Assembly: GCA_030765065.1 (NCBI GenBank)
Contig: CM060977.1
Span: 100,333,795-100,397,794, forward strand
Length of the DNA stretch: 64,000 bases
Source of the DNA: Deroplatys truncata
Taxonomy: Eukaryota > Arthropoda > Insecta > Mantodea > Mantidae
Direction of reading: 5' to 3'
Both the position numbers and the translations under genes were made by a program. Below, in pieces: positions 2,943 to 51,430 of this stretch (position 1 is the stretch's first letter; the number at the start of each line of letters is the position of its first letter). The notes under the pieces were generated by a model. That model was given only the letters and a program-made list of their open reading frames with translations, was not told the DNA's origin and did no database searches.

Positions 2943-3820
2943 TCTGATGTGTTACACTCACATGACTTTCTCTACTCTTGTACAATCTATTTTTACAAAC
3001 GCCTATTCTCCATATGCTTCATATTAATCGAGATATCGAGATGTCCATCTTATTTGTAATTTTCTTGTAGATGCAAGGGGAATATGGTAGCTTTTAAGCC
3101 ATAGTCAAATATTTGAACGCTGGTTGCTATGTGGCGCATTCCATTCTCTTTGCATGTCCAGGACATAAAAAAATGAATAACGAATTTGAGAAAAAGTATA
3201 AGTATTGGAAAATTTAAGGAAATAACAAGCAATATCTCGAAAACGGTTCACTCAACAAAAAAAATGTATATTATATAAGTTGTGTATTTTAACGCGATCT
3301 ACATTTTTTGTGTAGTAAAATTTTGTCTATCTCTTATGGTTTACCAGTTATGCAAAAGTCGTTCATAATGAAGAATACTTTTGTAGACATTCCAAGAAAT
3401 TTCGAGATATACATTTCATTTCTCATGACATTATCTTAAACATATGATATTTTCATCAAAATCGTTAGCCATTTTTGAGAAAATTAAAATTTTCGAAAAA
3501 TGTTCCATGTAAAGGGTAGTCTGGGGTGGGGGGATTTTCTTGAAAATCTTCGTGTCGTATCTCTGGAAGATACTGAACGTAAATACCAAGTTTGGTGTTT
3601 ATCCGACTGTTAGTTTTTGAGTTATGCTGTTCACAGACACACACACAGACACACACACAGACACACACACACAGACACACACACGGACATGTTTCCAAAA
3701 ATGCGTTTTTTGGATTCAGGAGGTCTCAAAACATATATTTCCGATGAAATCTCGGTATCGAATTTTTGGGTGGAATGCAATACTTCCCCTACTTACTATA
3801 CGTAGTAGAGAAAGTAAAAA
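2943..3820 (+). mobile_element. Family H, full-length reference copy (subfamily 2)
   Basis: The best example of the dominant repeat. Visible parts: 5' end TCTGATGTGTTAC; subterminal ACTTTCTCTAC at 2965-2975; A half; the central cgatctacattttttgtgtag block; B half with tggtgtttatccgac; a CA/CAGA microsatellite at about 3632-3684; cctcaaaacatatatttcc; then a 3' hairpin whose right arm GTAGAGAAAGT lies at 3805-3815, followed by AAAAA. There is no coding capacity and no long terminal inverted repeat. Subterminal inverted motif, internal microsatellite and 3' stem-loop together match non-autonomous Helentron-type (HINE/DINE-1-like) elements; a MITE of another class is the alternative. Subfamily 2 differs from the common one in the A half. 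Other subfamily 2 copies are at 8023-8912, 10543-11227 and 48145-48986. Confidence 0.75.
3632..3684. repeat. (CA)/(CAGA) microsatellite inside family H
   Basis: An interrupted CA/CAGA tract at the position where nearly all B halves carry one. Length differs from copy to copy, as expected for slippage within an element. Confidence 0.9.
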
Positions 3821-11841: not shown

Positions 11842-12555
11842 ATATTATTTCACTTTATAAGGATAAACGGTACTTGGGAATCTCAGACTCTGTAATACAA
11901 AACGGATATATATGCAACCTATCTTACTCTTCGTAGATTTGAAAGAGGATAGTTTGTAATGATAAATAGGTTCAGATCGGATCTTGCTATCGGCAAGCCA
12001 TTCAAAATGCCTTGACAAGCCTGGGGTTGGTCGCCGTGGCTTAAACGGAAGTAGGTTCTCTTCTCTCCAGTAAATATCACCTCCAGTTGTGCATGCATTC
12101 ACGAACTGACGACATCCATAATGCAGTTACCAAAATTAGCCATGACCACAACTCCGTTTACTGAGCGGAACACGTTTTAGGCCTTGGTATTAATCCGTCA
12201 GAATCACAGGCGGTGGTGAGACAAAAGCACTCATTAACTACCATTGACATACGACACATTCCTGTAGTTAAACTTGACGACCTCTCTCACAGAATCCACA
12301 AGGAATTGAGGCCATATTGCAGATAGCAAACTCTCCAAACATGGTAGAATTATTATTACTTGCATTCTCAGATTCGAATGGTTAAATAAGCCTCTGCTTA
12401 AAACTTGAGTCAAAAGAAACACCAGTGACGAATCACTTCGATTTAGACTTTCAAGATATGATATGTCTGCACTGAGCTTATAATACAGGATGATTTCGTG
12501 ACCAAATAAAGAAGTTATAGTTGCAGCATTGTAAAGTACTTTTGATAGATCAAAG
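11842..12555. other. No recognisable feature
   Basis: Short frames on the minus strand (11845-12102, 12234-12422) match nothing I recognise. Part may belong to the hAT relic or to the LINE that follows. Confidence 0.45.
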
Positions 12556-13229
12556 CTGATTCAGGCTTCAATGGGAATGATTTGGCTGATAAAAACCAAG
12601 GAAGCAGCTCTTAAAAACAACATTATCTAGCATATGATAAGCATCCTAAAACCTCAACCGTCAGAAAAGTTGAGGAAGGACTTCTTCGGTGGCAACGTGA
12701 GTGGACCAGCACAACCAAAGGCGCTACATGCAGAAAGTTTATTCCGTCTGTTATTCAAAGAATGGAACAAAACCTCCCTATCAGCTAGACATTAACACAA
12801 ATTATTAGCAAACATGGAGAAACCAAGGCATACTTGTACAAGATACGAATAATAGATGACCCTAAATGTCTCTGTCTCCTAGAAGAACTGACCTCACAAC
12901 ATCTCGCCTACAGATGCCCAAAGCTACAAAAGGAAAGGTATGACCTGAAATACATGATATAGCTCCATAATACCAAACGGTCAGTGACAGAGGAGCTTCT
13001 AATAAACAAATATCTCGACTTTCTAATACATTTGTCGAAACAATAGACTTTGGCGCCGTAAAGTGGACTCTCAATATAAAAGTGTAAATAGAAGTGTTGC
13101 CTGTGTAGAGCAGAGTATATAATCATGGAAAACTGCACTTTCAATATGTAATTGATCTAATGTAAAATTGTATCTAGTATTAGTTGAGTAATGGAGTATA
13201 CTCAATAATAAAAAAAATAAAAAAACAGA
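12556..13229 (+). mobile_element. Non-LTR retrotransposon (LINE), 3' end relic
   Basis: The plus strand encodes the end of a LINE ORF2: a ribonuclease H tail (FNGNDLADK), then YDKHPKTSTVRKVEEGLLRW, QREWTSTTKGATCRKFIPSV and ISKHGETKAYLYKIRIIDDP, then a CLCLLEEL...H...C region. This is the usual C-terminal order in R1/I/Jockey-like ORF2 proteins. Several in-frame stops interrupt it. A non-coding tail follows the ORF end and closes in an A-rich stretch (aataaaaaaaataaaaaaac, about 13208-13227), as expected for the 3' end of a reverse-transcribed copy. The 5' part, including the reverse transcriptase, is missing. Confidence 0.8.
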
Positions 13230-13230
13230 T

Positions 13231-13555
13231 CATCCCAAACCTTCCACAACATATTCCGAGTTCTGGAAATGCTACATAGCAATCATCGATCTGAATGGTC
13301 GAGTAACATTGTTATAAAATTACACTAGGTGAAAATTTAAACCTTTGCATCTTCTCTTTGGTCCAGTAATTATTTAATAACATAAAAGGTACACTGTTTT
13401 AAAATTATATAGAAAACTTAATATATACAACAAACTAGAGGTGAAGCTGGTGAATATGTAGATTCCCGACTCCCAGGTCACCAAATTAACCAACCACTTT
13501 GGAAAAGACCCATAGTCTGCGACCATCGAGAAAAACAACTGTCTCAGCCGTTAAT
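13231..13555 (+). repeat. Unclassified dispersed repeat P, copy 1
   Basis: Shares its course with 42718-43090: gagttctggaaatgct, gaatggtcgagtaac, gcatcttctctt, aggtgaagctgg, caccaaatta and agtctgcgacca. It abuts the LINE tail. Confidence 0.65.
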
Positions 13556-13689
13556 TAAAAAATATCCGTTTATGATTTTTAATGTTAGCAATTTTCTCTC
13601 TTTATGCAATTATTATTTCGCCTGCCCTCTGACGAGTTGATTATACTTTAAATACAAACCAAATAAGGCAAACAATTAATTACTCTTCC

Positions 13690-13835
13690 ACCCTGACATG
13701 TGTGAGGGACAAGGTGGAAAGGTAGAATCCGAGGGCTAAAAATTAAATCCCAACGCCGGGATTTGAACCACACATCTCTCGGTTCTGTTTGATTAATCTA
13801 CCCATTGTGCTACCGTGGCAACATGCCGGTAGGAC
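13690..13835 (-). mobile_element. tRNA-derived SINE relic
   Basis: On the minus strand an A-box-like TAGCACAATGGGTAGA is followed after about 35 bases by a B box GGTTCAAATCC (plus strand 13758-13769). A tRNA-like head without an intact cloverleaf indicates a SINE rather than a tRNA gene. Confidence 0.6.
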
Positions 13836-13839
13836 ATTA

Positions 13840-15318
13840 AATTCTCCAGCTGACGCATTTTTCCCGGTAAGGCTTAAGGAGATCTCAAATTGTTTTAAGA
13901 TGATATACCCCAATGGCGACTTACAATGCTGTAAGTACTTTAAGTCCCGGCTTCATTAGTTTAGACTCTATCAGGTCAATCAATGAATTAATTTACCTGA
14001 TAGATAATTCTTTTCTACCCCATAGCATTCTGAACTAAAAGTCAAGGACTATTTCGCAAACATGTTCTCTTACATAAGATAGGTTGACTAAATCCAAGAA
14101 ATGCTGTAGTAGTATTGGCATCAATATGTCTAACAGGTTATCGAAAACTGCCCATTCAGGAGCCTAAATGGATTTAAAGTTGTTTTAAAAACGCTGGCTT
14201 GCTGTTGTAGCAGGAAACCGTTGATCCTCTGGGTTGATGCCCTCTGCTGCAGTGTTCCTGTCTCCGGCAAACTCTGCTCAGCGGCTGATGATTTCTCCAT
14301 TTCTAATAAATTACCAATCTAATTTCACAGGTCTCAGGGTTTTCGTAGGTGAGGCAAATTAAAATACACTGCATTTCCCTTAAAATATGGTTTATTGTCA
14401 ACATAATACTTATGTGCAGCTAGCTTTTCTTATCTGTAACAATTCCCACCATAATAATAAATTAGAAGCCTAATCTAACTGCACACGCTTCCAACCCATA
14501 TGCACACACGTGCATCGTTGTCCAGGGAGTATATCTGTGTGTGAACGAAATTGTATAAGGGAGTGAAAATCTGGGACCTTCTCCCTTTTATACCAAAACC
14601 TAGTGACACTCACTTTCGCGCCTTAAAATGTAACGACATTTCTAATTGGTCCTCAGACCGCGTTACCTTATTATGTACGAAAATATTCTGCTCCAAAACT
14701 TTTCGCACTCGCTAAAAAGTGACCCGTCCGGAAACAAATTCAATCTCTCTGTCTCTTTCCTTTCTATATCTGTCTCTCTCTATTTCTTGTTATTGCTTCA
14801 AGTTACTTGCTCATTAGCTTGGTAAAAGGTGGTAGGCTCTATCTAGAATTACCTTCTACGTGGAATTAGCTAGCTCGCCCATCCCTTACTTATCTAAGTT
14901 ACAATCTGCTTTGTACATCTCTTGGCTGCTAAATATTCTAACATATTTCTTGCTGAATTTTATTATTATGTACAATTATTGTTTGATATTGATTTATATG
15001 TCTATATGTATGTGTGTTGTATATCCCCTTTCAATGTAACCTATTTTATAGTGTTAACGAATTCATTCAGGCCAATAGTGACATTGTCTTTTAAAGTGCC
15101 TTGTTTTGTATTTTTCTGATTTTATTCTTTGTTTAAATGCTCTATTATTCACTTATGTTAATATCTGCTTTTTATGCAATTTTAAAAGCATGAATAAATA
15201 TTAAATTGAATTCAACTTCAATTTATTCGTATTCAAGTACAAGGGCTTTGTAAATCCTTTAGTAATTTATGAAATTAAATAGATGGCGTTTTATACCTCC
15301 ATTTCTAAATACACACGG
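13840..15318. other. No recognisable feature
   Basis: Non-coding looking. A slightly GC-richer pocket at about 14210-14290 and a T/C-rich run at 14740-14790 are the only local structure I notice. Confidence 0.5.
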
Positions 15319-15319
15319 T

Positions 15320-15506
15320 CCTTGTGAGTGGCTCAGTTGGTTATATGCTTGCCTTGTGATTCCATGGTCACGGGTTTTAAACCTGTGCTTAAAAGCGACG
15401 TCCCATGTCAATAGATTTAGTAGCATGTAAATAAACTCCTGCGGAACGAAATTCCTTCACACCGGCGGCGCTGATGTGATCTCACATTGGCAGCATCCTT
15501 AACAAA
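15320..15506 (+). mobile_element. tRNA-derived SINE
   Basis: An A box GTGGCTCAGTTGG at about 15328-15340 and a B box GGGTTTTAAACC at about 15374 form the internal polymerase III promoter. The body contains aaactcctgcggaacgaaat and caccggcggcgctgatg, a tail type common in arthropod SINEs. Confidence 0.75.
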
Positions 15507-16320
15507 TAAAATGATTTTTAACGCATAAATTTTCGCTTTATTATGTGGAATAGCAACAGCTCCATAAATTCTGATGTCGGCTGTTCCGTGTGTTTATCCC
15601 TAACAACAAAAGACTAGCATGTATCCATTGCTTCCTTCTTGTTACAGTACGGCTGGAGGTAACGTCCTGCAATGAGGTTACAAGATATATTTATAGCGAT
15701 TTACTTAGGTGCTTAAATAAAGAAGTCCCTTTGGCCTTATGAAGTAGCTGACACGATGGTTCATGATCCCTCTTATAAAAATCCCTCGAAAAATCCTCAG
15801 TATGATCGTGTAATATACCGTCTTGTTGAATACTTATGCGTTTGAGAGAACATTTTCTGTTTACCTTCTCTACGACTTAGCTACAGTAACTAGAGGAACC
15901 GGAGTCATTAATTTCAAAGGTCTAAGGCATGACAAAGATTTTTCGTAACATCCAATGTGTGGAGAAGTAAACGTAGCCTTTCATTGTGTATTACACTGCA
16001 ATAAAACAAAGGCAAGGCTACAAAAAAGGAATAATTTTTAAATGGCGAAATTTTAATTAGGAGCATTTTGGCTGTTGAAGTATAGAGTGTAGAAAGCTAT
16101 TTATGTAAAGTAAGAGAGAAACGAGCAAGAATGCTAAAGGGGGAACGTAAGGAAGGGGAATATTAATATAGTAGGCTTGTTAAGTATTGTACCCTTTCGT
16201 GGTGCAACAATTTTGAAGCCGTACCCTATGCCTGAAATGTTGATGCTGCTATGCGAAGTTGCATCCATTTAGACAAAACGTTTAGTTGTTGTTGAGTTCT
16301 ACGCTGTCATCTCCCAGCTT
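15507..16320. other. No recognisable feature
   Basis: No repeat match within the window and no coding signal. Confidence 0.5.
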
Positions 16321-17030
16321 GTTCTGTAGTTGTCCGTTCCGCCAGCTGCTTCAGTGGTATAGCTATTAGTTCTTTGTCTCAAGATATTCGCGAGCGTAAT
16401 GTGGAAGGATAACACCAATTTAGTTAGCTGATAAACTTGTATATTGACATAAATATTCTGTTTGAAGTGAGTCGCCGACTGTTGAATTCAAGAATTAAAT
16501 TATTTATAGAATAATAATTATGCAAAGCGTCAGTTGCCTGTAAGTCGCAGAAATTCTCGGGAGGATCCCTCGAAATATCCGCTAAATCCAACTCAAGCGC
16601 GTCCCTAAGCGCTACACAATTTAAAATGAATCTAAATGCCACACGAGTAATCACAAGAGTCGTCACATGAGTAAGTCACATGATTAAGTAAAAAACTAAA
16701 ACTTAATTCCGATTTAGAATGCATGCTTTTTTCCTAACTTAAACTCCGCATACCTATCGCTACCCCTACCAACGTTCCTACTCAATCGGTCTAATCTTAA
16801 TCTCTACTTACGCGTACCTAACACTGTTACTATCCAGTGCCTCGCTCGAATCTCAGAATTTTACTACGTTTCTAATTTAGAGAATTTCTGCCTACGTGAT
16901 TTTATAAACACACCGAAGTCGCCCCTCAACTGCATTCCAGGAACTTTTATACTAATGTCTTTCCTTAACTGGACTCGCTAATGACCTCTTTCTCTGGGCA
17001 AATCTTTCAACTTAGGCTTATTACATTATA
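16321..17030 (+). repeat. Repeat R3, copy 1, left part
   Basis: One of three same-strand copies (others 33607-34452 and 41046-41906). Shared landmarks are ccagctgcttcagtggtata, gagtcgccgactgttgaatt, ggatccctcg, cgctaatgacc and ttacattat. The copy is split by a mariner inserted at a TA. Confidence 0.75.
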
Positions 17031-17940
17031 TTGTGGTGAATCAAATATACACAGGAATTATTTTTTACAATTTTATTGAAACCACCAACAGAAACAAAAC
17101 AAAAACATCTTTCTACATTTGACACAATTTTGGCATTAAATTGACAACTTCTTGCTGCCGTCCTGGAAGAAAGAAGAGGAATGTGTGTACAGCCAGTTGC
17201 GCACGTACTCCTCTACCACTGCATCGTCATCAAATCGCTTTCCTCTCAGTTCTTCTTTCAGCGCCCAAACAAATGGTGGTCAGAGGGGACAGCTCTGGAG
17301 TATAAGGAGTGCGTTCCAGAAATGTCCGATGCATTTCATCCATATTTTCCCTTCATTAAGGCAGCAGTGTGTGGTTTTGCATTGCCATGCGCAACAATCG
17401 CATCTCGGATTGGTTGCCGGCGTCGTTTGTTGCCATATGCAGCTTTTGTTTCGACTAAAAGATGGCAATAATAGTCTGGTTTACTGTCCTTAGTTCTCGA
17501 ATGAAATCCACCAGCAAAATGCTCTCCGAGTCCCAGCTGTCCCTTTCCAGCAGAAAGACGTGTTTGGGCAATTTGGTGGGGCTCATTTTCCAGTGCTTCC
17601 TGTCCTACAAAAATGTGCTATGCAATTCTTTAAAGGGTTGCTTTCCCAAACAGTGCATGAAGCCTTTTCAAAATTTCCGAAGTTCTGGTGCCATAAACTT
17701 GATTATGATGTGTTGCGCAACGGATGCCTGTACCTCTTGCTCGCTCATGGCGTACTGAAGCGAGCGGCTGCTCTGCGGTATGTGACGCAACAATGCGTTC
17801 CAGAGGTTTCCGATGCATTTCATCCATTTTTTCCATTCCAGATATCCCCACATGCATTCTCTCAAAGCCCCACTCATTTCTGTTCACTACCAGAGCTGCT
17901 AATTTAAAATTCCGGTTTATATTTGATTCACCCACGCACC
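17031..17940 (-). mobile_element. mariner-family transposon, internally deleted
   Basis: Cut-and-paste DNA transposon. The ends are imperfect inverted repeats: the left has gtggtgaatcaaatatacac, and the reverse complement of the right has gtgggtgaatcaaatataaa; both are flanked by TA (17029-17030 and 17941-17942), the mariner target duplication. The minus strand encodes transposase pieces in order: RLHALFGKATL and ALENEPHQIAQTRLSAG (N-terminal helix-turn-helix and linker), then VAHGNAKPHTAALM, PSDHHLFG and EELRGKRFDDDAVVEEYV. The second catalytic aspartate (normally HDNA) reads G, the third (PSD) is kept, and the segment with the first is missing. At 910 bases it is about 400 shorter than usual, and frames shift and stop, so it cannot make transposase. 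Confidence 0.85.
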
Positions 17941-18045
17941 TATAAGTTACCGAAATTATTTAAGGCAATTATTTCTCTACCTCACTATCATTTGTTTGTC
18001 TAATTACTTATATCTTCCTGTCAATAAGTGCCCTATCTGTATAAA
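17941..18045 (+). repeat. Repeat R3, copy 1, right part
   Basis: Resumes the R3 tail after the mariner: tcactatcatttgtttgtct and atcttcctgtcaataa, as in copies 2 and 3. Confidence 0.65.
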
Positions 18046-19600
18046 AAGGGACGAATATGTAATATAATAGTGACGGTCGCTAAAACACGCATAACCTGGA
18101 TTTGTGTGTATTGTAACTAAATATATTTAGGCATGCAACGTTACAAAGGCAATATTGAGAGTACCAAGAAGATCTTTATTTTTATTTTAGTGAGAATAAT
18201 AACCTGTACTAGATGTGTACTCGCTGACATATGCCGTCATTTATGGGAGGCATTTTACGAACTTTCTCAGCGGGCGTATGTAGCAGGTATGGGTGTGTCT
18301 GAAGCATTCTGACTATGTAATTCGACCAAGAAGAGATATGTGTTAACTGTAGCTCATGCGATGTATCCAAATATTTCGGAGGAGCATCAGGGAAGAATTG
18401 TGGATATGTGAGAAGCCAATTTTTTAAATACAGTGCTAAGGCAATTCCATGGAGCATCCGCATGGAAAAATTATTAAAATAGTGCGTAGTGTGTCCGTTT
18501 TGATAATAAAAAGCACAATGCAGGATGTTATTTAGTTGTATATTTAAACATGGTTATTATAAGTGATGACGACTAAAGCTATTGCTCAAAGTTATCTATT
18601 CATATATGAATAATCCAGAGCTGTGCACGTAAAACAGGATGTCAGTGCATATGCGAAAAGGTAAACATATAAACACCGCTCCTTGCTGTACATACTCCAC
18701 CTGTGAGGGGCTGTAGAATGCCGCCGGAAGCTACGGTGACGGCATAAATGGAAGCAAGTGTACATTATACGATGTCAGCTATCAGACCGTAAGTAGTTGA
18801 ATTAAATTCAAATATAAACATTCTGTGTGCTAATGCACATCTACTTTTTGGCATTATTACAACACTAACACGCTATACACAATGAAACACATGGTTTCAC
18901 AAGGTAACAACCTGTGTACATAGAGTTTGCGTGAACAATTTGCCGGCACACGGAGAGGGAACAGAACCGGTTAGAAATGGTGCAATGCCGGGGGAGCAGT
19001 TCTCCGTAATAGGGCCTATCGTCGAAACGGTGCTTCCGTATAATGTTACTGGGTAACCCCTATAAATAGGTTGTTCTATTTTAGGGTAAAATTAATTTTA
19101 GTCTTACTAATAATATAAATAAGAATTATTAGGACAATTGACTCTAAAACAGAATTGTATATAGGTAAACAACACGTGCCAGGTGCAGTATTTTAATCGT
19201 ATCGTTTTAAATACTTTGTTGTCACTTTTGATCGCAGTTGGAGGCTACATTGATGCATTATATTTCAATAACATCGCCACATCTTAGGGTTGAGGAACAT
19301 TTCATTGATTAATAAGTCATCAAGGAATTTAATTTAAGCGAATGAATATAAGGACCTATGCAACCACAAAGCTGGGCATATGCCAGCGAACACAAGGGCA
19401 TATATCATTCAGTCTTGCAAAGTGTTCCTGCCATAGAAGCATAGGATGATTAAGTTTCCAGTAGTCTCGATTCTCGTCTGTGTTGCCACAAAACATTACT
19501 AGCTTGGAGCATTCATTACACGTGAGTGCTCACTCAGAAGTGAGGATGCTTTCAGCTTAATATGTTCAGAAAACATAATTAATCTAACTGGACGGGATTA
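18046..19600. other. No recognisable feature
   Basis: AT-rich apart from a GC-richer pocket at about 18670-18770 (cctgtgaggggctgtagaat) that faintly resembles leader sequences of some insect LINEs. I would not call it. Confidence 0.45.
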
Positions 19601-20068
19601 TTGAACGGAGCGGACACCTAGCACTGCGATCCTCAAGGAATCTATTGTAAGTACACCCCCGGGAGAAACGGGTGAGGTCAGTGAATCGCAGGAGACACAC
19701 GGGCTGCACAACAAATCCAACGCAAGTGGAAAGGGACCGGCAGAGTTCCGTAAAATATTCGGGCTTGACCACCCGGCCACGGGAGGGCCGCTCAGAGACG
19801 CCCCTCTAGTGGGACCAAGGAAACGTATCCAAAGCGCAAGCCTCTGCACCACACACCGCCCAAACCACAGCCGGAGTCAACTTGAAACATTAAAGGAAAA
19901 TGAAAGGAATAAGTAGATAGGAGAGGGTAGAATACTCCACTCAGCATTCCCCTTTGTAACCATGGAAAACAACGAAAAACCCATGGTCAGAGTGTAGGAC
20001 CACCAGGAATCGAATCCAGGAGCTCGCAAGACTCGAGCCATACACGTTACCGCAGAGCCACCAGGCTG
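19601..20068 (-). mobile_element. tRNA-derived SINE, long form
   Basis: On the minus strand the head GGTGGCTCTGCGGTAACG (A box) lies at the right end, the B box GGATTCGATTCC matches plus-strand 20007-20018, and a body with ACCATGGGTTTTTCGTTG follows. The body is GC-richer than its surroundings and reaches to about 19600. The left limit is approximate. Confidence 0.65.
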
Positions 20069-20144
20069 GGTTAGTTCATCTGAAGTCTCCAGAGATTTAT
20101 AAGCGCCACAGAAGAACTGTTACTTTCATATAATTCTCTCGCTG

Positions 20145-20577
20145 TTTTACTTTCTCTACCACGTACATAAAGGCAGAGAAGGTATTGTAGTGCACCAAAA
20201 TTTCGATACCGAGATTTCACTGGAAATACATGTTTTGAGGCTCCCTGAAAAAGGTCTGTGCGTGTGCGCGCGCACGCGCCTATGCAGAGCGTAACTCAAA
20301 AACGAAAAGCCGGATAAATACCAAAATGGTATTCAGTTTCAGTACCTTCCAAGAATGCGACACGAAGATTTTTGAAGAAAATACCCCAACTCTAACCACT
20401 ATTTAGTTGGAACATTGTAGTGAAAGATTTTCAATAATTTAAGATTGTTCTTAAAATGGCTCTAACGATTTTAATTAAAAAATTCATACATTAATGATAT
20501 TTACATGGCAAAAGGCATATCTTGAGATCTCTGGGCATAGCCTTTGAAGTCCTTTTTATTCAGAAGTAATTTTGAAA
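20145..20577 (-). repeat. Family H, B half, inverted
   Basis: The 3' hairpin at the left end (ttttactttctctaccacg) is followed by ttcgataccgagatttcac, atgcgacacgaag and ggctctaacgattttaat. The microsatellite position holds alternating gtgtgcgcgcgcacgcgc at about 20257-20279. It may be the first half of a copy whose A half resumes at 21281. Confidence 0.8.
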
Positions 20578-21280
20578 CCGATAGTCAAATGTTTAAGAAC
20601 TGGACGCTATATGCTGGCCTTAAATTCCATACTGTTTCGATGCAATCGCAAGAAACAACTGAATGTTGAAAGGACTATAAGAGAATGACAAAGTAATGAA
20701 CAATTCCAGCCATTAATAATGCATATCTCGGAGATGTTTGATCCACAATAAAAGGTATATAAAATAAATTGTGCGTCTTAAAGAGAATTACATTTCTCGT
20801 GCAGTACGTTTTGTTCTATCGCTTAACGTTTACTAGTTATATAAGATTATAATAGTAATTCCTTCCAAAGGAAGAGGACTTAATAGGCTATTATCAGAGA
20901 ATTAAATACATTAGTTATTTGTCGTGTAAATATCAATAATATATGGCATTTTAATCAAAATCGTGAGAGCTATCTTTTAGAAAATAAAGATTTTCGCAAA
21001 ATGTTCCATGTAAAAGATAGTTTGGAGTTGTATTTTCTTATCAACCTCACATGTCGCATTCTTAGAAGGTACTGCTAACTACCAAATTTGGTGTTTATCC
21101 AACCTTTCGTTTTTCTGTTATGCTGTTGACACATACACACACGACCTTTTTCTAAAAATACATGTTTTGGATTTAAGAGACCTCAAAACATGCACTTCCA
21201 GTTAAATCTCGGTGTCAAATTTTGGGGTGAAATGAATACCTTCTCTATCTACTATGTACGTGGTAGGGAAAGTAAAAAAA
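20578..21280 (+). repeat. Family H, copy lacking its first part
   Basis: Enters the A half at gatagtcaaatgtttaagaa, then complete through the B half to the hairpin gtacgtggtagggaaagtaa. The CA tract is short (21130-21142). Confidence 0.85.
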
Positions 21281-21398
21281 ATGCAGATCTGTTTAAAACA
21301 CAACATTTATTTCAATATCTTTGTTCTGGCATAGACCAGTTACGACATATACATTATTACCGATTTGAATTATTCAATACTTTATTTTAACATGGAAT
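21281..21398 (-). repeat. Family H, A-half fragment, inverted
   Basis: Starts atgcagatctgtttaaaaca right after the plus-strand 3' end. This is the same junction as at 11227/11228. Confidence 0.7.
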
Positions 21399-21575
21399 AT
21401 CTCGGTAATGGTGTAAATTGTCTGTTTTAATAAATTTACGTGTTTTTACTATAAGATTTTGTCTATAAATTATGGTTTATCAAGTATACAAAAGGCATTC
21501 AGAATGAAGAGTACTTCACAAGCTATTCCCAGAAAATTCCAGATATAAGCTTTGTCATGAAGGTGTCTTAAAAAC
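21399..21575 (+). repeat. Family H, middle segment
   Basis: Runs from aatatctcggtaatggtg to catgaaggtgtctta, then breaks off where the promoter-like segment begins. The 3' end of the same copy appears at 22036-22110. Confidence 0.75.
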
Positions 21576-22035
21576 AATATGTTCAGTTTTCACTGTCACT
21601 TCAATTTTCCTCGCGCGTAACGGTGTAATGAAACGCGCGAAGCAGCCTCTTCTTTCTTTTGCTTCACTCGCTGAAGCGTCAAACACAAGACTTCTCTAAA
21701 CGTTCGTAGTAGCAACAACTATCATCAGAGCCTCACTCGAAGAACGCAATGAACTTTATGTAGTATCAAGAAAGGCTCACTACCTCAGTCGCCTATATGC
21801 ACGAGCAGAAGTTTCTGGAATGTTCACGGGTGCCAAGAGAAACCGGTTCTCTCTCGATAGTGCTTCTGATGTTTGTACTGGATGAAAGCGCTCTTCCGTC
21901 TCCTTAATTTTCAACCGGACAGTCGGTCGGTCGCCATATCTCCGTCACAATACGGTTATTTTCAACTCAATCATCAGTGCCGTTATTAGCCCACTTTTTA
22001 TTTTTAAGTGGCGATGTTCAGTGTTTTTGTTTATA
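21576..22035 (-). promoter_or_regulatory. Orphan heat-shock-type promoter and leader segment
   Basis: Non-repeat sequence lying in the middle of a family H copy. Seen directly: four alternating pentamers GAAnnTTCnnGAAnnTTC at 21808-21825 without a mismatch, which is the heat shock factor binding pattern; an adjacent near-palindrome gagaaaccggttctctc with a GAGAG run (GAGA-factor-like) at about 21837-21855; and on the minus strand a TATA-like GCATATAGGC at 21791-21800, about 10 bases downstream of the heat shock element. A purine-rich leader-like tract with gcgagtgaagcaaaagaaag follows, ending at gtgacagtgaaaactgaaca. This order resembles hsp70-type promoters and leaders. No coding sequence follows: the family H copy resumes at 21575. 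A captured promoter or processed fragment is inferred; a transposon with its own heat shock element is the alternative. Confidence 0.5.
21808..21825. promoter_or_regulatory. Heat shock element
   Basis: GAA-gt-TTC-tg-GAA-tg-TTC, four units at exact 5-base spacing with alternating orientation. A match this regular is unlikely by chance within one short segment. Confidence 0.65.
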
Positions 22036-22110
22036 TCTGGAGCCTCAAAACCTTTATTTCCGTTGAAATAACGAATTGGAATTTTTAGTACTTCCTCTAA
22101 TTAAGTCCTT
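22036..22110 (+). repeat. Family H, 3' fragment
   Basis: ggagcctcaaaacctttatt and tccgttgaaataacgaattg, then a decayed end. It matches the part expected after the interruption at 21575, although the intervening B-half piece with the microsatellite is gone. Confidence 0.65.
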
Positions 22111-22114
22111 TATA

Positions 22115-22334
22115 CCGAGCGAGTTAGCTAGCGGTGATCTATTTGGCTTGCATTCAGGTAGTCCCGGTTTCGATCCCCATCGACCGCCCACTGAGCCCTG
22201 GATTTTTCGTGGTTTTCCCTGGTTGTAGGCGAATCCTGGGCGATTTCTCCATCTACTACGATTTCTTTCTCCTCATTTCCCTTTCATTCCATTTCGTTTT
22301 CATTTTTCAGGTGTGAAATTAAAATTAAATTAAT
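22115..22334 (+). mobile_element. tRNA-derived SINE
   Basis: Head with A-box-like GTTAGCTAGCGGTGATC and B box GGTTTCGATCC, then cgaccgcccactgagccc and the body ggatttttcgtggttttccc. It shares its body type with the SINEs at 50771 and 52682. Confidence 0.75.
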
Positions 22335-22340
22335 TTCTAT

Positions 22341-22600
22341 TTATGGACGCTCTTTAACTGCTTTGGTTCTTAGGGTTGTGTTCTATATTGGGCAAGAAAA
22401 CCGGAAATTTTTCTCAGAGGCCTCTTAGTTACACTTGAGGTTCTTTTTTGTGCCGTAAATCTACGACACGGGACCACCGGCTTTACTGCTAAGGATTTTA
22501 CACCCGAAAAAGTCCATCGCCATCCACCATTCAGGTGTGCTTCTAGGTTTTGTGGTGTATGACGGTCCCGGATAGATGCCGCGGATGCTTGCTTAAAGGA
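22341..22600 (-). mobile_element. SINE family 2 copy, inverted
   Basis: Closely related to 51142-51430: tttatggacgctctttaac, atctacgacacgggaccacc and ggctttac occur in both. The tRNA-like head of this copy is too decayed to show clear boxes. It lies directly behind another SINE, as its relative does. Confidence 0.75.
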
Positions 22601-23665
22601 AAGGGTATTCTCCATGGACACTTGAGTGCTGCTTGGTCGACGGGGTGATCATCGCCCTCTGTGGGCAGCTCCATTAGCCTGGAACTGTTATGATTTCCAT
22701 GCGTCTCTATGGCCTGGGGTCTGTGGCCTCCTGTGGCTCCTTCACTTAATCTCTTACTCGACAATATATCTCTCGTAGGTTGCGGTGTGTGGGTTCTCTC
22801 CCTACGATGTACAGATGATAGGTGCTTTTATGAAGTATCTTACTTAAAACGCATATTTAAGTGTTATAAAATTGCTTGTTCACTAAGCAGAAGACATTCC
22901 TTAGAAAAACTGTATGAATGGAGCCCTGCAGTTAATTGAGCGTGGGTATTCTATTGTTAATGTTAGTGGTTCGTAAAAAGTTTAATTAAAGAGACTGGGT
23001 GGAAGAAGGAAGGATTCCAGTTCTGCCTACTCTAACCTTAAGCGATCATTGCAGTTAATTTGAAGGTGAGGAGTTTCACCCTTTATTAAAAGAAGGAGTA
23101 CAATTAAGTCGTTATTCACATTCATTTGAACCAAGAATCTCCCGAGGCACTCGCTCTTCCCCGTAATGATGCACGTTTAGAAGTCAAAGCCGTCAAAGGT
23201 AAGGTCTAAAGACTAAGGAAGGATTTCGTCTCGCTTTACTGAATTATTACTTCTTTGTGGTTCAAAGAAAATGAATAAAGAAGGGAGACGGTTAACGAAG
23301 CACAACAGAATGTTGATAATTTTGACGGGGGAGTTATGAATGCGAACAAAGGTTTCTTGAAGACATCTATTTGTTCTTAATGTTAAATTAGAATGTCACT
23401 TTTGCTTCTTGTTTAGGGCGGCTTCTCTGTTTTATGTTTTCCGTATTGCTTCATTTCTTAAGAAGGAAAAATATACTGAAGAAGAAAAAGGGATGGCTAG
23501 AGCTGTAATCCTTTTGAGCATCTTACGGCATAATTTTGGGATGAGGCAGAACGATGACGTAAACATTTATTTTAAGTTTTCACTATAGTTTTCGCTTCCA
23601 CCTGTTTTGTTAAACAAACATCAAGTAAACAAAATTAAGTTGTATTGCATGCATAAAAATTTGAT
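22601..23665. other. No recognisable feature
   Basis: GC-richer up to about 22800, possibly further SINE sequence, then AT-rich. No coding signal. Confidence 0.45.
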
Positions 23666-24028
23666 GTGTTAGACTACATTCTATCACATATTAGTGAGTA
23701 TACAAATTATTCGTACGAAGTTTATTTTTCTATCTACTTCTTTTTAATTCAAATAATTTTTTTCCAATAATACCTACAATACACACTTTGTTACAAAGGA
23801 AAGAACGATAACCAAATGTTTTAGAACTCGGCGCAATAGCCTGCCCTTAAAATTCCATTATGTTTCCATGCTGAAAATCGACCGGACTTTAAAAGAATGA
23901 CCTAAGCATTGAACGCTTCGAAACATTAATGACGAATACCTCAGAAATGGCTTATGCTACAAAACGTTATTTCAAATAAATAGTGCTTTATAAAGGGACC
24001 TACATTTTTGTGTAGTAGATTTTAATCT
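23666..24028 (+). repeat. Family H, A half of a copy split by a solo LTR
   Basis: From aatttgatgtgttagac through gtttatttttctatctactt to tgtgtagtagattttaatct. The B half resumes at 24959. Confidence 0.85.
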
Positions 24029-24958
24029 TGAGGCAGTATTTTTAACACTAAAATGATTTCAGTCTAATTGTATCCTATATATAATTTAATAACAGCCCGC
24101 CTTAAGGCAATATGTGTATGTAACAATATATATGGAGTGTATATTACAGTCATTGCATATGCCTATATTGTGAATGTATTACGTAATTTAATAATGTAGG
24201 AGCTATGAGAATAATAGGTTAAAAGTTGCTAACAATGAGGTAACAATGAGGTAACCTTGAGACATTAATGAGTTTGAAAGTTAAAATTCTACTAGTCATT
24301 ATTGGAGCAACAATAATGTAAATTTTGAGACAGTTTAATAAATAGCCAATCAACAACCAGAAAAAGCTTTATAAAATTAAGTTATTCTATTGGAGTAGAA
24401 TTAGCCAATCAGAAACTGAAAAGGAGAAACATTTATAAATTTACAAGTCAGTTGTCTGCAGACAGAGATTGTAACCGCATGCGAGATGCGTCCTCGAGAG
24501 ATTTAATACGTATTCGTGTGAGACGAAAAATAAGTTTACTTGTTAAAAAGTGTAATTAATTAATAAAAAAGAATCTGACGGCTCTCTATATCAGTGATGT
24601 GTTATTTAAATCGCATCAATCATTAATAAAAGAAGTGGGGTAAAATTATAATCTGTGTAAGCCTACATTCTTGTCGCATCACGCCCTGCTAAGAGAAGCG
24701 TGTCTCTCACAGTAATACTGACGAAGCCGAGGCAAACATAAATATATAATATTTAAAGAAACAGTTAAACTACAAGGTTAACATTTTTTTTAAACTTGGG
24801 GCAAAGGCCACCTGAAAGTACATTTGGGGTGAAGGCTACCGGAAACTGTTTATTATACGTGCGTATGCAACTACTACAAGTTAGGCTCCCCAACAGTTGA
24901 AATATAATACAACTCCTTCAAAATCGGCTTCTCCATACGTAACAAACCACCTATTTCA
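24029..24958 (+). mobile_element. Solo LTR (family L), copy 1
   Basis: Fossil of an LTR retrotransposon: a 930-base terminal repeat, TG...CA (TGAGGCAG at the start, TATTTCA at the end), flanked by the 4-base duplication ATCT (24025-24028 and 24959-24962). No internal region is left, as expected after recombination between the two LTRs. It inserted into a family H copy and is therefore younger than that copy. The element family is named only for this window. Confidence 0.85.
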
Positions 24959-25434
24959 ATCTATCGTTTAACGTTTAACAGTTATTTTATAACGTTATTC
25001 GTAAGTCCTTCCGAATGAAGAGTACTACAGAGACTGTTCCCAGAAAATTCAAGATGTATATTTTATTTGTCATGTAAATATCTTTAATATATGATACTTT
25101 AATCAAAATCATTAGAGCCGTTTTTAAAAAATAAGAACACAAAAAAATTCATGTAAAGCGTAGTTTGGAGTGAGAATATTTTCTTACGCTTCACCGTGTC
25201 GCAGCTTTGGAAGATATTGAACTTAAATACCAAGTTTGATGTTTATCTGACTTTTGATTTTTAGCTACGTTGTTCTCTCGCTCATGCACACAAGTGCACA
25301 CACACACAGGTCCATTTTTCTAAAAGGGCTTCCTTTGTATTTAGGGGTTTCTAAACATGTATTTCCGGTGAAATCTCGGTATTGAATTTTTGAGTGGAAT
25401 GCAATTCCTTCTCTACCGACTAGGTGTGGGTTTT
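24959..25434 (+). repeat. Family H, B half of the split copy
   Basis: Continues from atctatcgtttaacgtttaa to ttccttctctaccgactagg. The CA tract is at about 25287-25308. Confidence 0.85.
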
Positions 25435-25483
25435 GAAATTCCATACTCTTCCCATGACGCCTGCGAAAGCACTTTAAAAGCTC

Positions 25484-25744
25484 TAAAGTGATATATTCAC
25501 ATAGCTTTATCTACCCTCTATCGGTTATTAGTGGGTATACAAGTTGGTCCTACTAGAGCTTACTTTTCTATTTACCTCATTTTAATCCAAATAAACCTGT
25601 GAACAAACAGCTCTATTGCTCATTTTGTTATAGATCCAAGAGAACAGCGATAGTCGAATTTTTAAGAACTGGACGCTATATGCGTCCTATATGGTCCTAA
25701 AATTCCGTACTCTTTCCATGCAATTCCAAGAAACAACGTTGAGC
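25484..25744 (+). repeat. Family H, A half split by a GC-rich insert
   Basis: From cacatagctttatctaccct to aattccaagaaacaac, with the usual agaactggacgctatatg. It resumes at 26222. Confidence 0.85.
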
Positions 25745-26221
25745 AAGGTGTACCAGGGTAAGAGACAAAGCCCCCTTTGAATCCCTCTCCATCCGTGGGG
25801 GTTTTCCATGAGGCCAATGTCTAGAGGCTATAAAGGCCCCCCCGCTTACGCGGAGATGGAAGTGGATACGCCACTTACGCGCGTCATCCCCGAAGGGCGA
25901 CTACCGATTACCTCGGTGGGGCCGACAGCAATCTAGCATGCCGTCTACCAGCTCTCCAAGGCGGCACCGGAGGACATTGAGGCGTCTCACAACCATACAG
26001 TCGTACCCAATCTCCCACGGATATCGGGAACCACTGCCCCGTCGAGACCAACCCAATCCGAACAGCTCCCCAACGGGAGGGTCAATAACGTTCGGCTCAA
26101 CGTACTTCTAGTAACGCCAGAAGTACCACGAGTGCTAGGGGTCCATAGTGTCCTCACTACGGCAGCTGAAGAGGTCAGAACCCCTCCCCTAGGGAAACAA
26201 GTGTAAGTTGCAGGGATATTA
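25745..26221 (+). other. GC-rich island with a near-open frame
   Basis: About 475 bases clearly richer in G and C than the flanks, inserted into a family H copy between agaaacaac and aataatgaccaag. On the plus strand a frame from ATG at 25856 to TAA at 26204-26206 would give 116 codons, interrupted only by one TAG at codon 27 (25934-25936). It begins MEVDTPLTRVIPEGRLPITS and ends EEVRTPPLGKQV, is rich in P, T, V and S, and has no motif I recognise. The composition and the length of the frame suggest a formerly coding piece, for example the 5' region and first ORF of a non-LTR element, or a host exon carried along. Neither is shown. The minus-strand frame across the same region (25987-26244) is probably its shadow. 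Confidence 0.45.
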
Positions 26222-26750
26222 AATAATGACCAAGTAATGAACAATTCAAACCATTCATGACGGATATCTCATAAATTACTCATGCCATAAAAACATTTGA
26301 AATAAATCGTGTGCTTTAAAGTGATCTACGTTTTTGGTGTAGAAATTGCTGAACGTTTACCTGTTATATAAGATTATACAAAATTCCTTCCGAATGAAGA
26401 GGAATTCATAGGTTATTCCTAGAACATTCAAGATACACGTTTTACTTGTCATGCGGATATCTTTAAAATATGCTATTTTAATCAAAATCGTGAGCCATTT
26501 TTACAAAATAAAGAATTTCGAAAAATGTTACATGTTAGGGATAGCTTTGACTGGAGGTATTTTCCAGAAAATCTTACGGATTTGGCATTTATCCGATTCT
26601 TCGTTTATGAGTTATGCAGTTCACAGACACACCGACAAGGGCATTATTCTAAAAATACGTTTTTAGGATACAAGGATGTATTTCCGGTAAAATTTTTCGG
26701 TGGAATGCGACACCTTATCCAACTACTGTGTACATGGTGGAGAAAGTAAA
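26222..26750 (+). repeat. Family H, remainder of the split copy
   Basis: Runs from aataatgaccaagtaatgaa to the 3' arm gtggagaaagtaaaac, with a short CA remnant at 26624-26637. Confidence 0.85.
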
Positions 26751-27140
26751 ACTCAAAGCGGATGTCTCAGAAATGGTTTTAATGAGATCTTGGTTTTTGT
26801 GTAGCGAATTGTCTATTCCTTATGGTTAACCCATCAGGCAACATTATACAAAACTCCTTCATAGTCTATTCCTCCAAAAAATCAAGACAGCGCTTTATTT
26901 CTCATGAAAATATCTTAAACCTATATTTTAATCAAAACGGTCATATCCAATTTTGAGAAAATAAAAAATAACGAGACATTTTCCATATGAGAGATAGTTC
27001 GGTTGTAGGATTTGTTTGAAAGTGTATTGTTGCTTTATTTCAGGCGTATAAAGTATTTCCGGTTTAATCTCGGTAACGAATTTTAGTATGCAATTTAATA
27101 TCTCTTCCATTTACTACAGATAAGTGGTAGGGGCAGTAAA
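26751..27140 (+). repeat. Family H, B half plus middle, next in line
   Basis: Follows directly: gcggatgtctcagaaatggt, then B-half landmarks to taagtggtaggggcagtaaa. The microsatellite region is deleted. Confidence 0.75.
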
Positions 27141-28393
27141 CATTGAGGTCACCTCCCCCGTGATTCTTTATTAGCTATGTAGATATATGGGTTATATAGT
27201 TGCACTCCTGGTGTCCTACTGGTAATGTTTTGTTTGCAGGTTATTATCCCCTGGGTAAAAATGGAATCATATGTATTAATTTCTTTTTATATGCTGTATT
27301 GTTTCTTTTCATTGAAATACAATATTATTTGCATTTATAATGAAATATATTCTTTTTATAAAGGATTCAGTGAATACTGCTGTCCGAAAAATGGTAGAGA
27401 TGTGTGCGGAGAACTGTAACGGCATTAAGGGGCTCTAAACATTGACCAGGAACCTGCAAAGCTTGCAGATCCCAGACTAACTTTATGACTACAGCCATTC
27501 CACACCCTCTCTCTCCCCTTCACATTCTGGAGTTCTACATGAAGAGGATTCAGCTTTCTTAACATTAATGTGCACTACATACTTATAAATATTCCTTTGG
27601 ATGTTATTAAATCGTAAAGGGTATACTGGACAGCCCATAACAGTAATTTATGTTAAGAAAAACAGGGATTAAAATTTTCCAGACAGAAATATATAGCAGG
27701 TGAACAAAAATTTTGGAATGTTGACCATAACCTTTAAATGGATTAATACAGTTAAGTGCTGAATTTTTTTAATTGTCATGGGAGTTAGTTGTCCAGTTAG
27801 AAAGGCCTCAGTGGGCCTCAAGCGGGCCGAAGGGTTGATCTTCAAAATTTTAAATGGAACCGTGGTATCAAATTTGAAATATTCTGATAGTACTTAATAA
27901 ATTAAGTAACTTTTGTGTAAAAAACACTCTTTTCTAAAATGAAACCTTGAGAATTTATAGTGTTTTGCAAGTATATTTAACATACACAATCAACTTTATT
28001 CTCGAAGCTAGTATTTAAGAACAACTGCTCTTAAATACAGTACTTAATATTGCTTATAACTTTTAAAACTTTAGTTTTGTTGAGAAATGTTAAACATTGA
28101 AGTTATCAAGGATATGTTTCTTGATTTTATGCACACAAATTAGAAAACTAAGTTCTTCGCATATACACGATAGGATAAAAAGTATTTTTGTAAATGGCAA
28201 TGCGTATTTATTGTTACATTTTTGGACTCTGCTTAGAATACTTGTATGAATACCAGATTTTATTTAATAATTAAGACAGAATGATCCTTGCTTTGCTTCA
28301 TTCAATATTTTGCTCTTCTGATTGTTTTATTAATGTCTTTGTTAGATAACTACGGAAGTTTATAAAATACTCATTTGTTGGTATCTTTAATTT
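27141..28393. other. Unassigned; right part may be transposon 3' flank
   Basis: No coding signal before 27640. From about 27660 the sequence may be the untranslated 3' part of the mariner-class relic that follows, because it directly adjoins the stop of that frame, but I cannot identify a terminal inverted repeat. Confidence 0.4.
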
Positions 28394-28877
28394 CACAACA
28401 AGAGTTCAAAGTGAGCACCATTCAGTGCCAAACAATGGCCCAGTCTGTCACGGAAATTTTCTAATCCTTTCGCACAGTATTTGGAATAACTAGACGCATC
28501 TCGTATCTGATATTTTGTTTAGGTCTAATAAACAGTTTGGTCTATTGCGGTACACTTTGGATTTCAAGTGTCTCCACAAATAAAAATCTAATGGACTGAG
28601 ATCTACATATCTAGGTGGCCACTCAGTAGATCCTCTTCTCCCAATCCATCTACCAGGAAACGTTGCATTCTGGAAGTCAATCATACATCTTCCAAAATAC
28701 GCTGGAGCACAATCTTGTTGATACCATATTTCTTCATTGAGCATTATGTTCTCTTTGGAAATAAAATTTTGACAGGATAGAATGATGTTGTTTTGCAACA
28801 GGTGAAGATAAATATCGGAATTTAAGGTTCCCTCTACACAAATGGTCCAATTATGTTGTTAGCAACAAAATTTGCTC
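28394..28877 (-). pseudogene. mariner-class transposase, C-terminal relic
   Basis: The minus strand encodes the catalytic C-terminal part of a Tc1/mariner-superfamily transposase: DIYLHLLQNNI, then EIWYQQDCAPAYF with the second catalytic aspartate, FPGRWIGRRGSTEWPPR, YVDLSPLDFYLW with the third, LKSKVYRNRPN, and after a frame change GLENFRDRLGHCLALNGAHF up to a stop. The order and the GRWIGRRG...WPPR signature are typical of this arthropod subfamily. The N-terminal helix-turn-helix and first aspartate are missing; the 5' side is cut off at the start of a family H fragment. At least one frameshift near the tail makes it inactive. It is unrelated in sequence to the mariner at 17031. Confidence 0.8.
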
Positions 28878-28878
28878 A

Positions 28879-29291
28879 TAGCCCTACACAAAAATGTAGA
28901 TCTCTTTAAAGCACACAATATATTGCAAATAACCATTTTTGTGGCACCAGGCATTTCTGAGATATCCGTTGTTAATGGTTCGAATTGTTCAATACTTAGC
29001 CATTCTTTTCAGTCATGTCGATTTTCAGTTGTTTCTCGCAAAGTCATGGAAGCAGTATAGAATCTTAAGGCCAGCGTATAGCGTCCAATTCTTAAACATT
29101 TGAATATCACTATTTCCCTTTGTATGTATAAGAAAATGTGTAATGCAGCTATTTCCAAAACGTTTATCTCGATTAAAATGAAGTAACTAGGAAAACAAAT
29201 TTTCATTTATTAAATTACTTTCGTAAACCTTGTATACCCATTAATAAGCGAAATGGTAGATAAAGCCATGTGAATGTAACACATCAGCAAT
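28879..29291 (-). repeat. Family H, A half, inverted
   Basis: Starts gccctacacaaaaatgtag and runs to gtgaatgtaacacatcagc at the element's 5' end, with gcgtccaattcttaaacatt inside. The B half is absent. Confidence 0.8.
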
Positions 29292-29299
29292 TTTTTTCC

Positions 29300-29486
29300 A
29301 TCAGCCGCTATTATTGCAGTCGGTATTCAATTGTTTCTTGTGATGTCATGGGAAGTGGATGGAATTACAAGGCCAACATATAGAGAACCAAACATTTATT
29401 GATTTGGTTTTGTCTGTTCCCCTTGTACCTTCAAAGAAATGTACAATTAATGTCTTGTACAACTAATATCTTGATTAAAATGTTGA
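29300..29486 (-). repeat. Family H, A-half fragment, inverted
   Basis: Recognisable from cggtattcaattgtttcttg and ggccaacatatagagaac. It follows the preceding A half with almost no spacer. Confidence 0.65.
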
Positions 29487-30269
29487 TTAAAATAAAATTG
29501 TTTCAAAAGAATTATTGATAGATGTTTTATGCTACATTCATTATATTTATGTTGATTGATTTTTTCTAATACAATAATGATGAAATAACATGAATATGAG
29601 AAAGCACAAAAGGCTTAAATCAAACACGCATGCGTATAGAAAGCAACATTTCATAGCAAAGCTTCTTCAACATTCAGTTATGTTATATATTAATTAAAGG
29701 GAAGTAACATACAGTGTATTCTAACAAGTCTTTCATTTTGCTCAAAGCGATTTTATCAAAGGCTGATCTACAATTGCGAAGCTCGCGGCGAATATACAAA
29801 CTGCATGCATTCTTTCTCTCTTTGCGAGCAGCAGTACTATAGTTAATTAATTCCTGTAGGCTCTTGGTATTAACGCAATATTGGGCGTGCAGCTGGTAAC
29901 GATGAGAAGACATCAATTCTGCTCACGTACTGACAAACACCCTGCGGCACATCTTCTGCCCAACGTTCTTATTAGGCTCCGACTTCAAATAAAATATGGA
30001 GCATTAATATCTAGCATCGCTTTTGAAAATAATGCGCCGAAAAGAGAGACGTGATAAATATGTCTTACGCCGAGCCAGAATTTATGTCCGAGATAGATCT
30101 TGAGAATGCGCTTTATGAAAAGCGTTCTGAAACGTACGTTTTTACTCAAAGCTAGATAGCCCATTTGAACAAATAAAATATGGTTTTTATAAACACCTAA
30201 GTACGCCATAAGCGGCACTTTGAAACTGAAATACAGGTGTTGTGTTAGCGACTGTAATGCTATACAAAA
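29487..30269. other. No recognisable feature
   Basis: Two minus-strand frames (29683-29916, 77 codons; 29985-30326, 113 codons) are open but match nothing I know, and the second runs into a family H copy. Confidence 0.5.
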
Positions 30270-35918: not shown

Positions 35919-36381
35919 ACGAGCCTACATTAATTGAACAAATTTACTGAACTTTCCTTACTTCAGGCCATGGCATTTGGGGGTGGGTTGTACTCGCTTG
36001 GAATGCAAAACTATGGAATACAACTCAAGAGGGTAACCGGGATTATTTTGGAGAAATATAAATGAAATTATTTGAATTTAACATTTTAATAACACAAGAC
36101 CTCTTACCATAAAAATCATATATTAAGTCTTTGCAAGAATATATACAACCCAACCCTCGCCCCGAGGTAAGATTCAATAGTTAAAGAGAGCGAATCAAAA
36201 TAACTCACCACATCCTCCGGTCAATATGTCATACCAAGCTACACGAATATTCTGGAATTTTCCAACTCTTTCTAAAACAAGTACAATGCTGCCAAAATTG
36301 AGTTGATCCTTCCGGAAACCCATTCTGGGAGTATTGACTCTAATCAGGCCTACCAAACTAAACTTACATGTAATCGTCAAA
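35919..36381. other. Unclassified insert between family H pieces
   Basis: About 460 bases unlike the family, separating an A half from a B-half fragment in the order expected for one split copy. No coding signal. Its identity is unknown. Confidence 0.4.
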
Positions 36382-50770: not shown

Positions 50771-51141
50771 CTGAGCGGAGTGGTGCGGCGGTAACGCGTT
50801 CGAGGGATCGATTCCCGAAAACCACCCACTCCGATTCATGGGTTTTTTTGCGGGTATTGCCAAGTCATCAGGCAAATGCTGGTGGTTTTTCAGCCCCCGA
50901 ATTTCCTGTTCCTCCGTTTCGTTCCATTAATCACTTCATTCATCCTACACCCCTTTAGGTCTGTTTTAGGATTAGAAGTGTCGGCAATGGTGTTTCGGTG
51001 CGGCATGGCAGGGCATGCTCTCTCTGGAGCTTTCTCCGTTCCCTCAGCTTTCGGCTGGTTGCCAGGAGTGAACGGTAGCCCCTTCGTTGCGGGGTATTGA
51101 CTGGTGAACCCTCTATGTAGGGTGAGTGTCTGCCTGAAATT
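50771..51141 (+). mobile_element. tRNA-derived SINE (family 1), left part
   Basis: A box TGGTGCGGCGGTAAC, B box GGATCGATTCCC at about 50805-50816, and a body with catgggtttttttgcggg, cccccgaatttcctgt and gtgtttcggtgcggcatggc. It aligns with 52682-53240. The copy is split after gtctgcctg by an inverted SINE. Confidence 0.8.
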
Positions 51142-51430
51142 CAGTTTTATTTATGGACGCTCTTTAACTGCTGTAGTCCTTAGTGTTCCATTCTATATTG
51201 GGCGTGAAATACCGCTAACTTTGCTCAGAGACCTCTTTATCAGGCTTGAGGTTGTTTTACGTGCCGTATATCTACGACACGGGACCACCGGCTTTATTTC
51301 CCTTCCGAAGAAAGGCATACTAAGGATTTTTAAGACCGAAAAAATCCATCGCCCTCCGCTGGGTTTGAACCCGCGATCTCGGGAAATAGAAGCTATCTTG
51401 GTAAACACTACACCACGGAGGACGATCCTG
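51142..51430 (-). mobile_element. tRNA-derived SINE (family 2), nested and inverted
   Basis: On the minus strand a head with GTGGTGTAGTGTTTACC (A box) and B box GGGTTCAAACCC (plus-strand 51361-51372), then a body ending agcgtccataaataaa. gtctgcctg stands on both sides and is probably the target duplication made on insertion into the family 1 SINE. Confidence 0.8.

Follow-up and report, generated by a model that had tools for sequence, protein, structure and literature searches.

The clearest demonstrations of heat-driven LTR elements with HSF sites come from plants, with ONSEN as the prime case. In this element (PMC3907296), every copy has the motif nTTCnnGAAn, the LTR is bound by HSFA2, and both RNA and extrachromosomal DNA are made under heat. 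The mantid family described here resembles ONSEN in being an LTR retrotransposon with HSF-type sites in its LTRs. On the other hand, ONSEN is a Ty1/copia element of Arabidopsis with eight copies in Col-0, whereas the mantid family is Gypsy-like, and ONSEN activity has been shown by experiment, whereas the mantid LTR family is known by its anatomy alone. DIRS-1 of Dictyostelium, a tyrosine-recombinase element, differs from the mantid family in having inverted terminal repeats and in not being an integrase LTR element. Like the mantid family, it is a retroelement with a heat shock promoter in its terminal repeats, according to the title of Zuker et al. 1984, cited in PMC2685390. In Caenorhabditis, transposons of the Helitron type supply many genomic HSEs (PMC6927752); unlike the mantid elements, these are DNA transposons, with HSEs in dense clusters and not in an LTR promoter. 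Insect LTR elements with predicted HSF sites, as in the mantid family, are represented by Drosophila copia and gypsy, which have been examined under stress, but the sites listed (PMC10745035) are not the multi-unit HSE arrays of the mantid LTRs, and of the elements measured there only Tirant rose under chronic heat (29 C). HSF-driven LTR elements are already known. The mantid lineage appears to be new within the literature searched: in the accessible texts, among which subscription journals are thinly represented, we recognised no description of a Ty3/Gypsy lineage in animals whose promoter is of the HSE-TATA type.

The window analysed here, a stretch of 64,000 nucleotides from the mantid Deroplatys truncata, came with an earlier note, which had proposed a heat-shock-type promoter inside a repeat copy, with no gene behind it. 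Our results suggest that positions 21580-21949, read on the minus strand, are what remains of a solo LTR, now decayed, from an old retrotransposon lineage that is Ty3/Gypsy-like and has a promoter of the HSE-TATA type. We put the probability of this reading, including the use of host HSF, at about 75%. That the repeat is a retrotransposon LTR in the first place is close to certain. The heat-shock motif looks like a property of a mobile element and not of a captured gene promoter. The features of the locus, in the direction of the minus strand, are as follows.

21950..21953, minus strand: GTAT adjoining the 5′ end of the LTR, a target-site context common in the family (from the sequence)
21580..21949, minus strand: LTR remnant of 370 bp, probably solo (from the 20-copy alignment, its edges and genome matches)
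21844..21935, minus strand: conserved U3 block 5′ of the HSE (copies ~71-85% identical)
21852-21836, minus strand: GAGA-type near-palindrome AGAGAACCGGTTTCTCT (from the sequence)
21825->21808, minus strand: perfect four-unit HSE with alternating units, GAACATTCCAGAAACTTC / GAAcaTTCcaGAAacTTC (from a pattern search)
21799-21792, minus strand: decayed TATA box, CATATAGG where relatives carry TATATAAG (from sequence and alignment)
21581..21717, minus strand: best conserved block, presumed transcribed part of the LTR (putative R/U5; ~81-88% identical in many copies)
~21672-21642, minus strand: purine-rich tract within the best conserved block (from the sequence)
21581..21604, minus strand: part of one 36-base repeat unit (from edge comparison with other copies)

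The order of the promoter elements on the minus strand is the one originally read, the purine-rich leader-like tract is real, and membership in a repeat is borne out by genome matches to dispersed copies of the LTR. The proposed span, 21576-22035, began at about the right place (21580) but extended too far, as the real end is at ~21949. The absence of a gene behind the promoter also holds: no ORF of at least 90 aa lies between 18000 and 28400 (12000-30000 scanned). Just beyond, at 28490-28798 (minus strand), lies an ORF which we take, by its motif, to resemble the end of a mariner-type transposase. The window also contains 12-13 copies of another abundant repeat family in both orientations (e.g. 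at 3709, 21166 and 48875), which is found in many fetched loci as well. A further repeat, SINE-like by what is presumably a tRNA-like B box, is present at 22310-22524 and 51137-51359 (both minus strand), and one copy of it interrupts the LTR in locus L031.

The window LTR starts with TGTGACGG at 21949 and lacks both ~22 bases present near the 5′ end of other copies in the 20-copy alignment and the ~8 final bases at the 3′ end. Since the 3′ end is missing, a GTAT duplicate on the far side is unreadable. Neither a leader nor a primer site nor an integrase was found at this copy, by reading its sequence and by comparison against the window, so a solo LTR is the best reading of it. In other copies, the 36-base unit of the 3′ end is present as 1 to ~20 tandem units, the expansion to ~20 being found in L026 and L031 (C12, ~200.39 Mb).

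Many dispersed copies, as a transposon predicts, were indeed found: the 4.29-Gb genome contains thousands of candidate copies. With the stretch described above as query, there were 2195 candidates, of which 40 were scored and yielded 44 matches; the use of other copies produced 4222, 4479, 7296 and 4591 candidates (40 scored each). The matches recur in two blocks, 21581-21717 (~81-88%) and about 21844-21935 (~71-85%), and homology drops sharply at both ends of the repeat when the window copy is compared with those of 19 loci (20 copies in all). Locus L047 was excluded from the alignments, as none of its matches to the first block exceeds 60 bases, and only five of the smaller loci were added, namely those with a long enough match that did not duplicate larger ones. 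A typical copy starts with TGTGACGCAGC and ends with AAAGTCACA, often in an RTAT context, and most copies read have TG...CA LTR ends; in L054 the 5′ and 3′ LTRs start with TTTTGTCAC and TGTGTCAC, respectively. Judged by eye, exact 4-bp target duplications are present in three of the nine copies with both ends readable (GTAT/GTAT in L038; ATAT/ATAT in L040 and L027). The flanks differ in one base of four in L035, L029 and L046 and in two in L030 and L039, and the duplication in L037 is exact only if the boundary is shifted by one base.

The family looks old, perhaps dead. Its age follows from the divergence between the LTRs of a pair (84.7% and 78% identity in two cases) and between copies (~70-82% over most of the LTR). 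Among the scored matches that cover most of the LTR, individual copies reach best identities to others of ~71-85%; the highest non-self value, 85%, belongs to the partner LTR of L054, and short pieces reach 93%. Near-identical copies, indicative of a young or active family, were absent among the scored matches of four copies used as queries (40 scored each).

Paired LTRs reveal what kind of element this is. Locus L054 has two direct LTRs of 489 bp, 84.7% identical, spaced ~4.06 kb start to start with ~3.6 kb between them. On the LTR sense strand, gag-like pieces lie in the interior, as does an ORF resembling the C-terminal part of an integrase, which runs up to and into the 3′ LTR. We take these to be gag and integrase by their motifs, because the Pfam matches of the integrase piece stay below the cut-off (Integrase_p58_C, E 0.0013; SH3_Tf2-1, E 0.0034) and the gag-like pieces had no Pfam match. 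A search against solved structures returned a single unrelated match (E 0.84), and no reverse transcriptase was recognised by eye in the short L054 frames. An integrase adjoining the 3′ LTR is characteristic of the Ty3/Gypsy order and not of the copia order. The integrase C-terminal-like piece adjoins the 3′ LTR in L054 and precedes the LTRs in L055 and L056, and we consider the element to be putatively Ty3/Gypsy-like, the class being assigned by the position of the integrase. Another LTR pair, 78% identical, is located at C4:117489031-117489501 and 117494909-117495430, with an integrase match just before the second LTR, and the region C16:235367349-235372148 carries both the 3′ integrase/LTR and the 5′ LTR/leader junctions. 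When the query bridged the end of the integrase and the LTR, 3 of the 39 other matches ran unbroken across the junction. For a query spanning the LTR end (at base 221) and the leader, 19 of 39 others stop at 193-228 and 20 continue into or lie within the leader.

In L042, the LTR is followed by a primer-binding-like stretch, a leader and an internal piece resembling that of L054. This locus (C16:660437328-660438098) is rearranged, with an inverted LTR-start piece ~320-460 bases after the 5′ LTR and leader. The primer-site position right after the 5′ LTR is occupied by TGTTGTCAGAAGTGAGATTT in L054 and TAGTGTCAGGAGATGGATTT in L042, both presumably resembling the complement of a tRNA 3′ end; the only tRNA gene in the loci examined is one for tRNA-Cys. 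Stretches downstream of other integrase matches contained related LTRs in both cases inspected. L056 is a clear LTR relative (~410 bp at 75-77%), and L055 is a distant one that aligns over short pieces alone (51-102 bp, 71-79%, E down to 8e-7) but keeps the order of HSE-like units followed by TATATAAG; we regard L055 as a diverged sister family. The integrase piece itself had 150 scored matches of 2865 candidates, ~104 of which, by a hand count, are on C16 (707 Mb, ~16% of the assembly). Searches with the gag and integrase pieces found nothing at E 0.01 near the 19 ten-kb copies or in the window slice (best E in the window 0.64), as expected if most copies are solo LTRs. Thus, the second possibility raised earlier, the control region of an unknown stress-responsive element, stands as far as anatomy is concerned: the region is a retrotransposon LTR, of a Ty3/Gypsy-like element, and its promoter is of the HSE-TATA type.

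The perfect four-unit HSE reported previously is exact at 21808-21825 and has the promoter orientation on the minus strand. The window has two matches to this pattern, against a mean of 0.00 in 100 window shuffles and ~0.015 expected per window for both phases from base composition. The second, GAATATTCTGGAATTTTC at 36245-36262, lies outside the LTR repeat, and no family-type TATA box was seen near it by eye. Three-unit sites number ten in the window versus 0.86 expected, eight of them outside the LTR; HSE-like words arise also in other repeats of the window. The TATA-like box was correctly located, as its relatives show, but in the window copy it has decayed. Similarly, the GAGA palindrome exists as a near-palindrome, but no aligned relative was seen to carry it, the usual text there being GAGATAACCAGATTCTTCTGG. 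Being apparently private to the window copy, it was rejected as functionally meaningful. The HSE would have been retained in this copy by chance, and its fourth unit, better than in most relatives, may itself have a chance origin. Because the TATA box and the 3′ end have been lost, the window copy is probably not a working promoter, but the predicted HSF binding could still take place.

The same promoter type recurs across the family. We counted HSEs in 29 LTRs: 25 copies of the repeat, the two LTRs of L054, and those of L055 and L056. Perfect three-unit HSEs were found in 13 of them (shuffles averaged 0.25 copies and never exceeded 1 in 60 rounds; flanks 2/50), and four units with at most one mismatch in 15 (shuffle mean 0.13, largest 2; flanks 1/50). 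At three units with at most one mismatch, the count rises to 22 (shuffle mean 5.22, largest 10; flanks 15/50), whereas four perfect units are confined to the window copy (1/29). By a hand count of rows, 21 of the 29 LTRs have an HSE-like array with at most one mismatch at the site of the window HSE or at the neighbouring upstream site; both HSE-like sites of L037 are away from the promoter position. Seven LTRs (L042, L045, L031, L034, L032, L005 and L027) lack a three-unit HSE even with one mismatch allowed, and two of these, L031 and L034, seem to have an insertion that pushes the HSE part out of the slice. An exact TATATAAG-type box is present in eight of the 29 LTRs, and in seven of these an HSE with at most one mismatch starts 25-60 bases upstream, while L005 has only the box. 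A second HSE, TTCTGGAAGTTTC, is present ~30 bases further up in several copies but has been lost from the window copy. HSE arrays beside the TATA box are therefore a feature of the family, seen in many copies and in L055.

Genome-wide, GAACATTCNAGAA followed by TATATAAG after 6-26 bases occurs at 531 places, compared to none for the reversed control; three of these places, cross-checked by coordinates, are LTRs (C1:19499279, corresponding to L028/L033, C1:123214410 and C3:114644503). The HSE core alone occurs 7263 times versus 897 for the reversed control, and a longer five-unit pattern, TTCTNGAACATTCNAGAACNTTC, 26 times versus 0. Among the 36 strings listed of the 531, four have C after the second unit, as in the window copy, and 32 another base. 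This base is no clean marker, as T also occurs in some copies of the window family. A further GAA..TTC pair precedes the TATA box in 19 of the same 36 strings. For the first 100 core places, we found seven same-strand neighbours within 12 kb and one on the opposite strand, with ~1 expected for each; LTR pairs would give such an excess, although a single tandem of three, evenly spaced, accounts for two of the seven.

How else might these observations be explained? An hsp promoter and leader, captured and spread by a transposon, would account for the hsp70-like order of the promoter and type of HSE. A PF00012 search of the genome gave 59 matches, from which we compared five hsp70 genes, ~1.2 kb upstream each; they were taken as intronless since their full length falls within one match (in one case with a stop codon). 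A blastn comparison of 20 repeat copies with these upstream regions found only matches of 12-28 bases (best E 0.032), a length expected by chance, and the leader-like part turned out to be LTR sequence common to integrase-carrying elements. Capture, as suggested in the earlier note, is thus unsupported for hsp70; we rejected it for the five genes and find it barely credible overall. One hsp70 copy with a stop codon, L053 (C4:173331360-173333174), has upstream DNA whose match to its relative L052 is limited to 156 bases that adjoin and include the start of the gene. The regions upstream of hsp70 genes L049 and L051 contain TTCTGGAACTTTC and later TATATAAT, which are of the same motif type as in the LTR. 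Motif likeness to hsp70 without homology would fit convergence on the same factor.

The short inverted ends (TGTGAC...GTCACA) and 4-bp duplications are also what a short non-autonomous DNA transposon of the MITE type would have, but direct pairs of the repeat surround gag and integrase pieces, a leader continues past the 3′ end and an integrase precedes the 5′ end. On the strength of the paired LTR copies we rejected the MITE reading, which is extremely improbable. A chance HSE in AT-rich repeat DNA, as could be imagined from the second perfect four-unit HSE at 36245 and the ten three-unit sites in the window, is already contradicted for the family by position-specific recurrence in relatives and by the genome-wide ratio of 531 to 0; it is highly improbable for the locus. 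The remaining explanation accepts a Gypsy-like LTR, but assigns the HSE-like array to another factor or to developmental HSF activity (e.g. in the germ line) instead of heat. HSF does act in Drosophila oogenesis and early larval development, according to PMC10745035. However, both the type of array and its closeness to the TATA box resemble the hsp70 promoters of the same genome (L049, L051), and we consider a purpose other than heat unlikely.

The best reading by analogy is that an old Gypsy-like lineage would have used host HSF for transcription from its LTR, as ONSEN does in Arabidopsis. It is quite likely that the promoter of the living element was HSF-driven. Under stress, a trimer of host HSF would bind the HSE array of the LTR, and polymerase would start ~30 bases after TATATAAG, inside the LTR, if the TATA box is a guide to the start. 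Element RNA would then be made in stressed cells. Recombination between LTRs would have left solo LTRs and, as a result, many HSEs scattered over the genome. The arrays would differ between subfamilies: in some the spacer before the TATA box is short (GAACATTCCAGAAACTC...), in others it is long and comes with an extra GAA..TTC pair (GAACATTCTAGAACCTTC..GGAAGATTCC...). A broader proposal, which we advance tentatively and at slightly less than even odds, is that a large Ty3/Gypsy lineage evolved or acquired a full hsp-type promoter, kept it across subfamilies with different HSE arrays, spread via the host heat shock response and left ~6,400 HSE cores above background (7263 versus 897), only part of which has been traced to LTRs.

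If HSF binds these LTRs, a genome carrying thousands of them would be a natural experiment on what a burst of transposition does to the heat shock response. Moreover, if there is indeed a lineage with an hsp-type promoter, its supply of HSF sites on a genome scale could reroute the heat shock response of its host.
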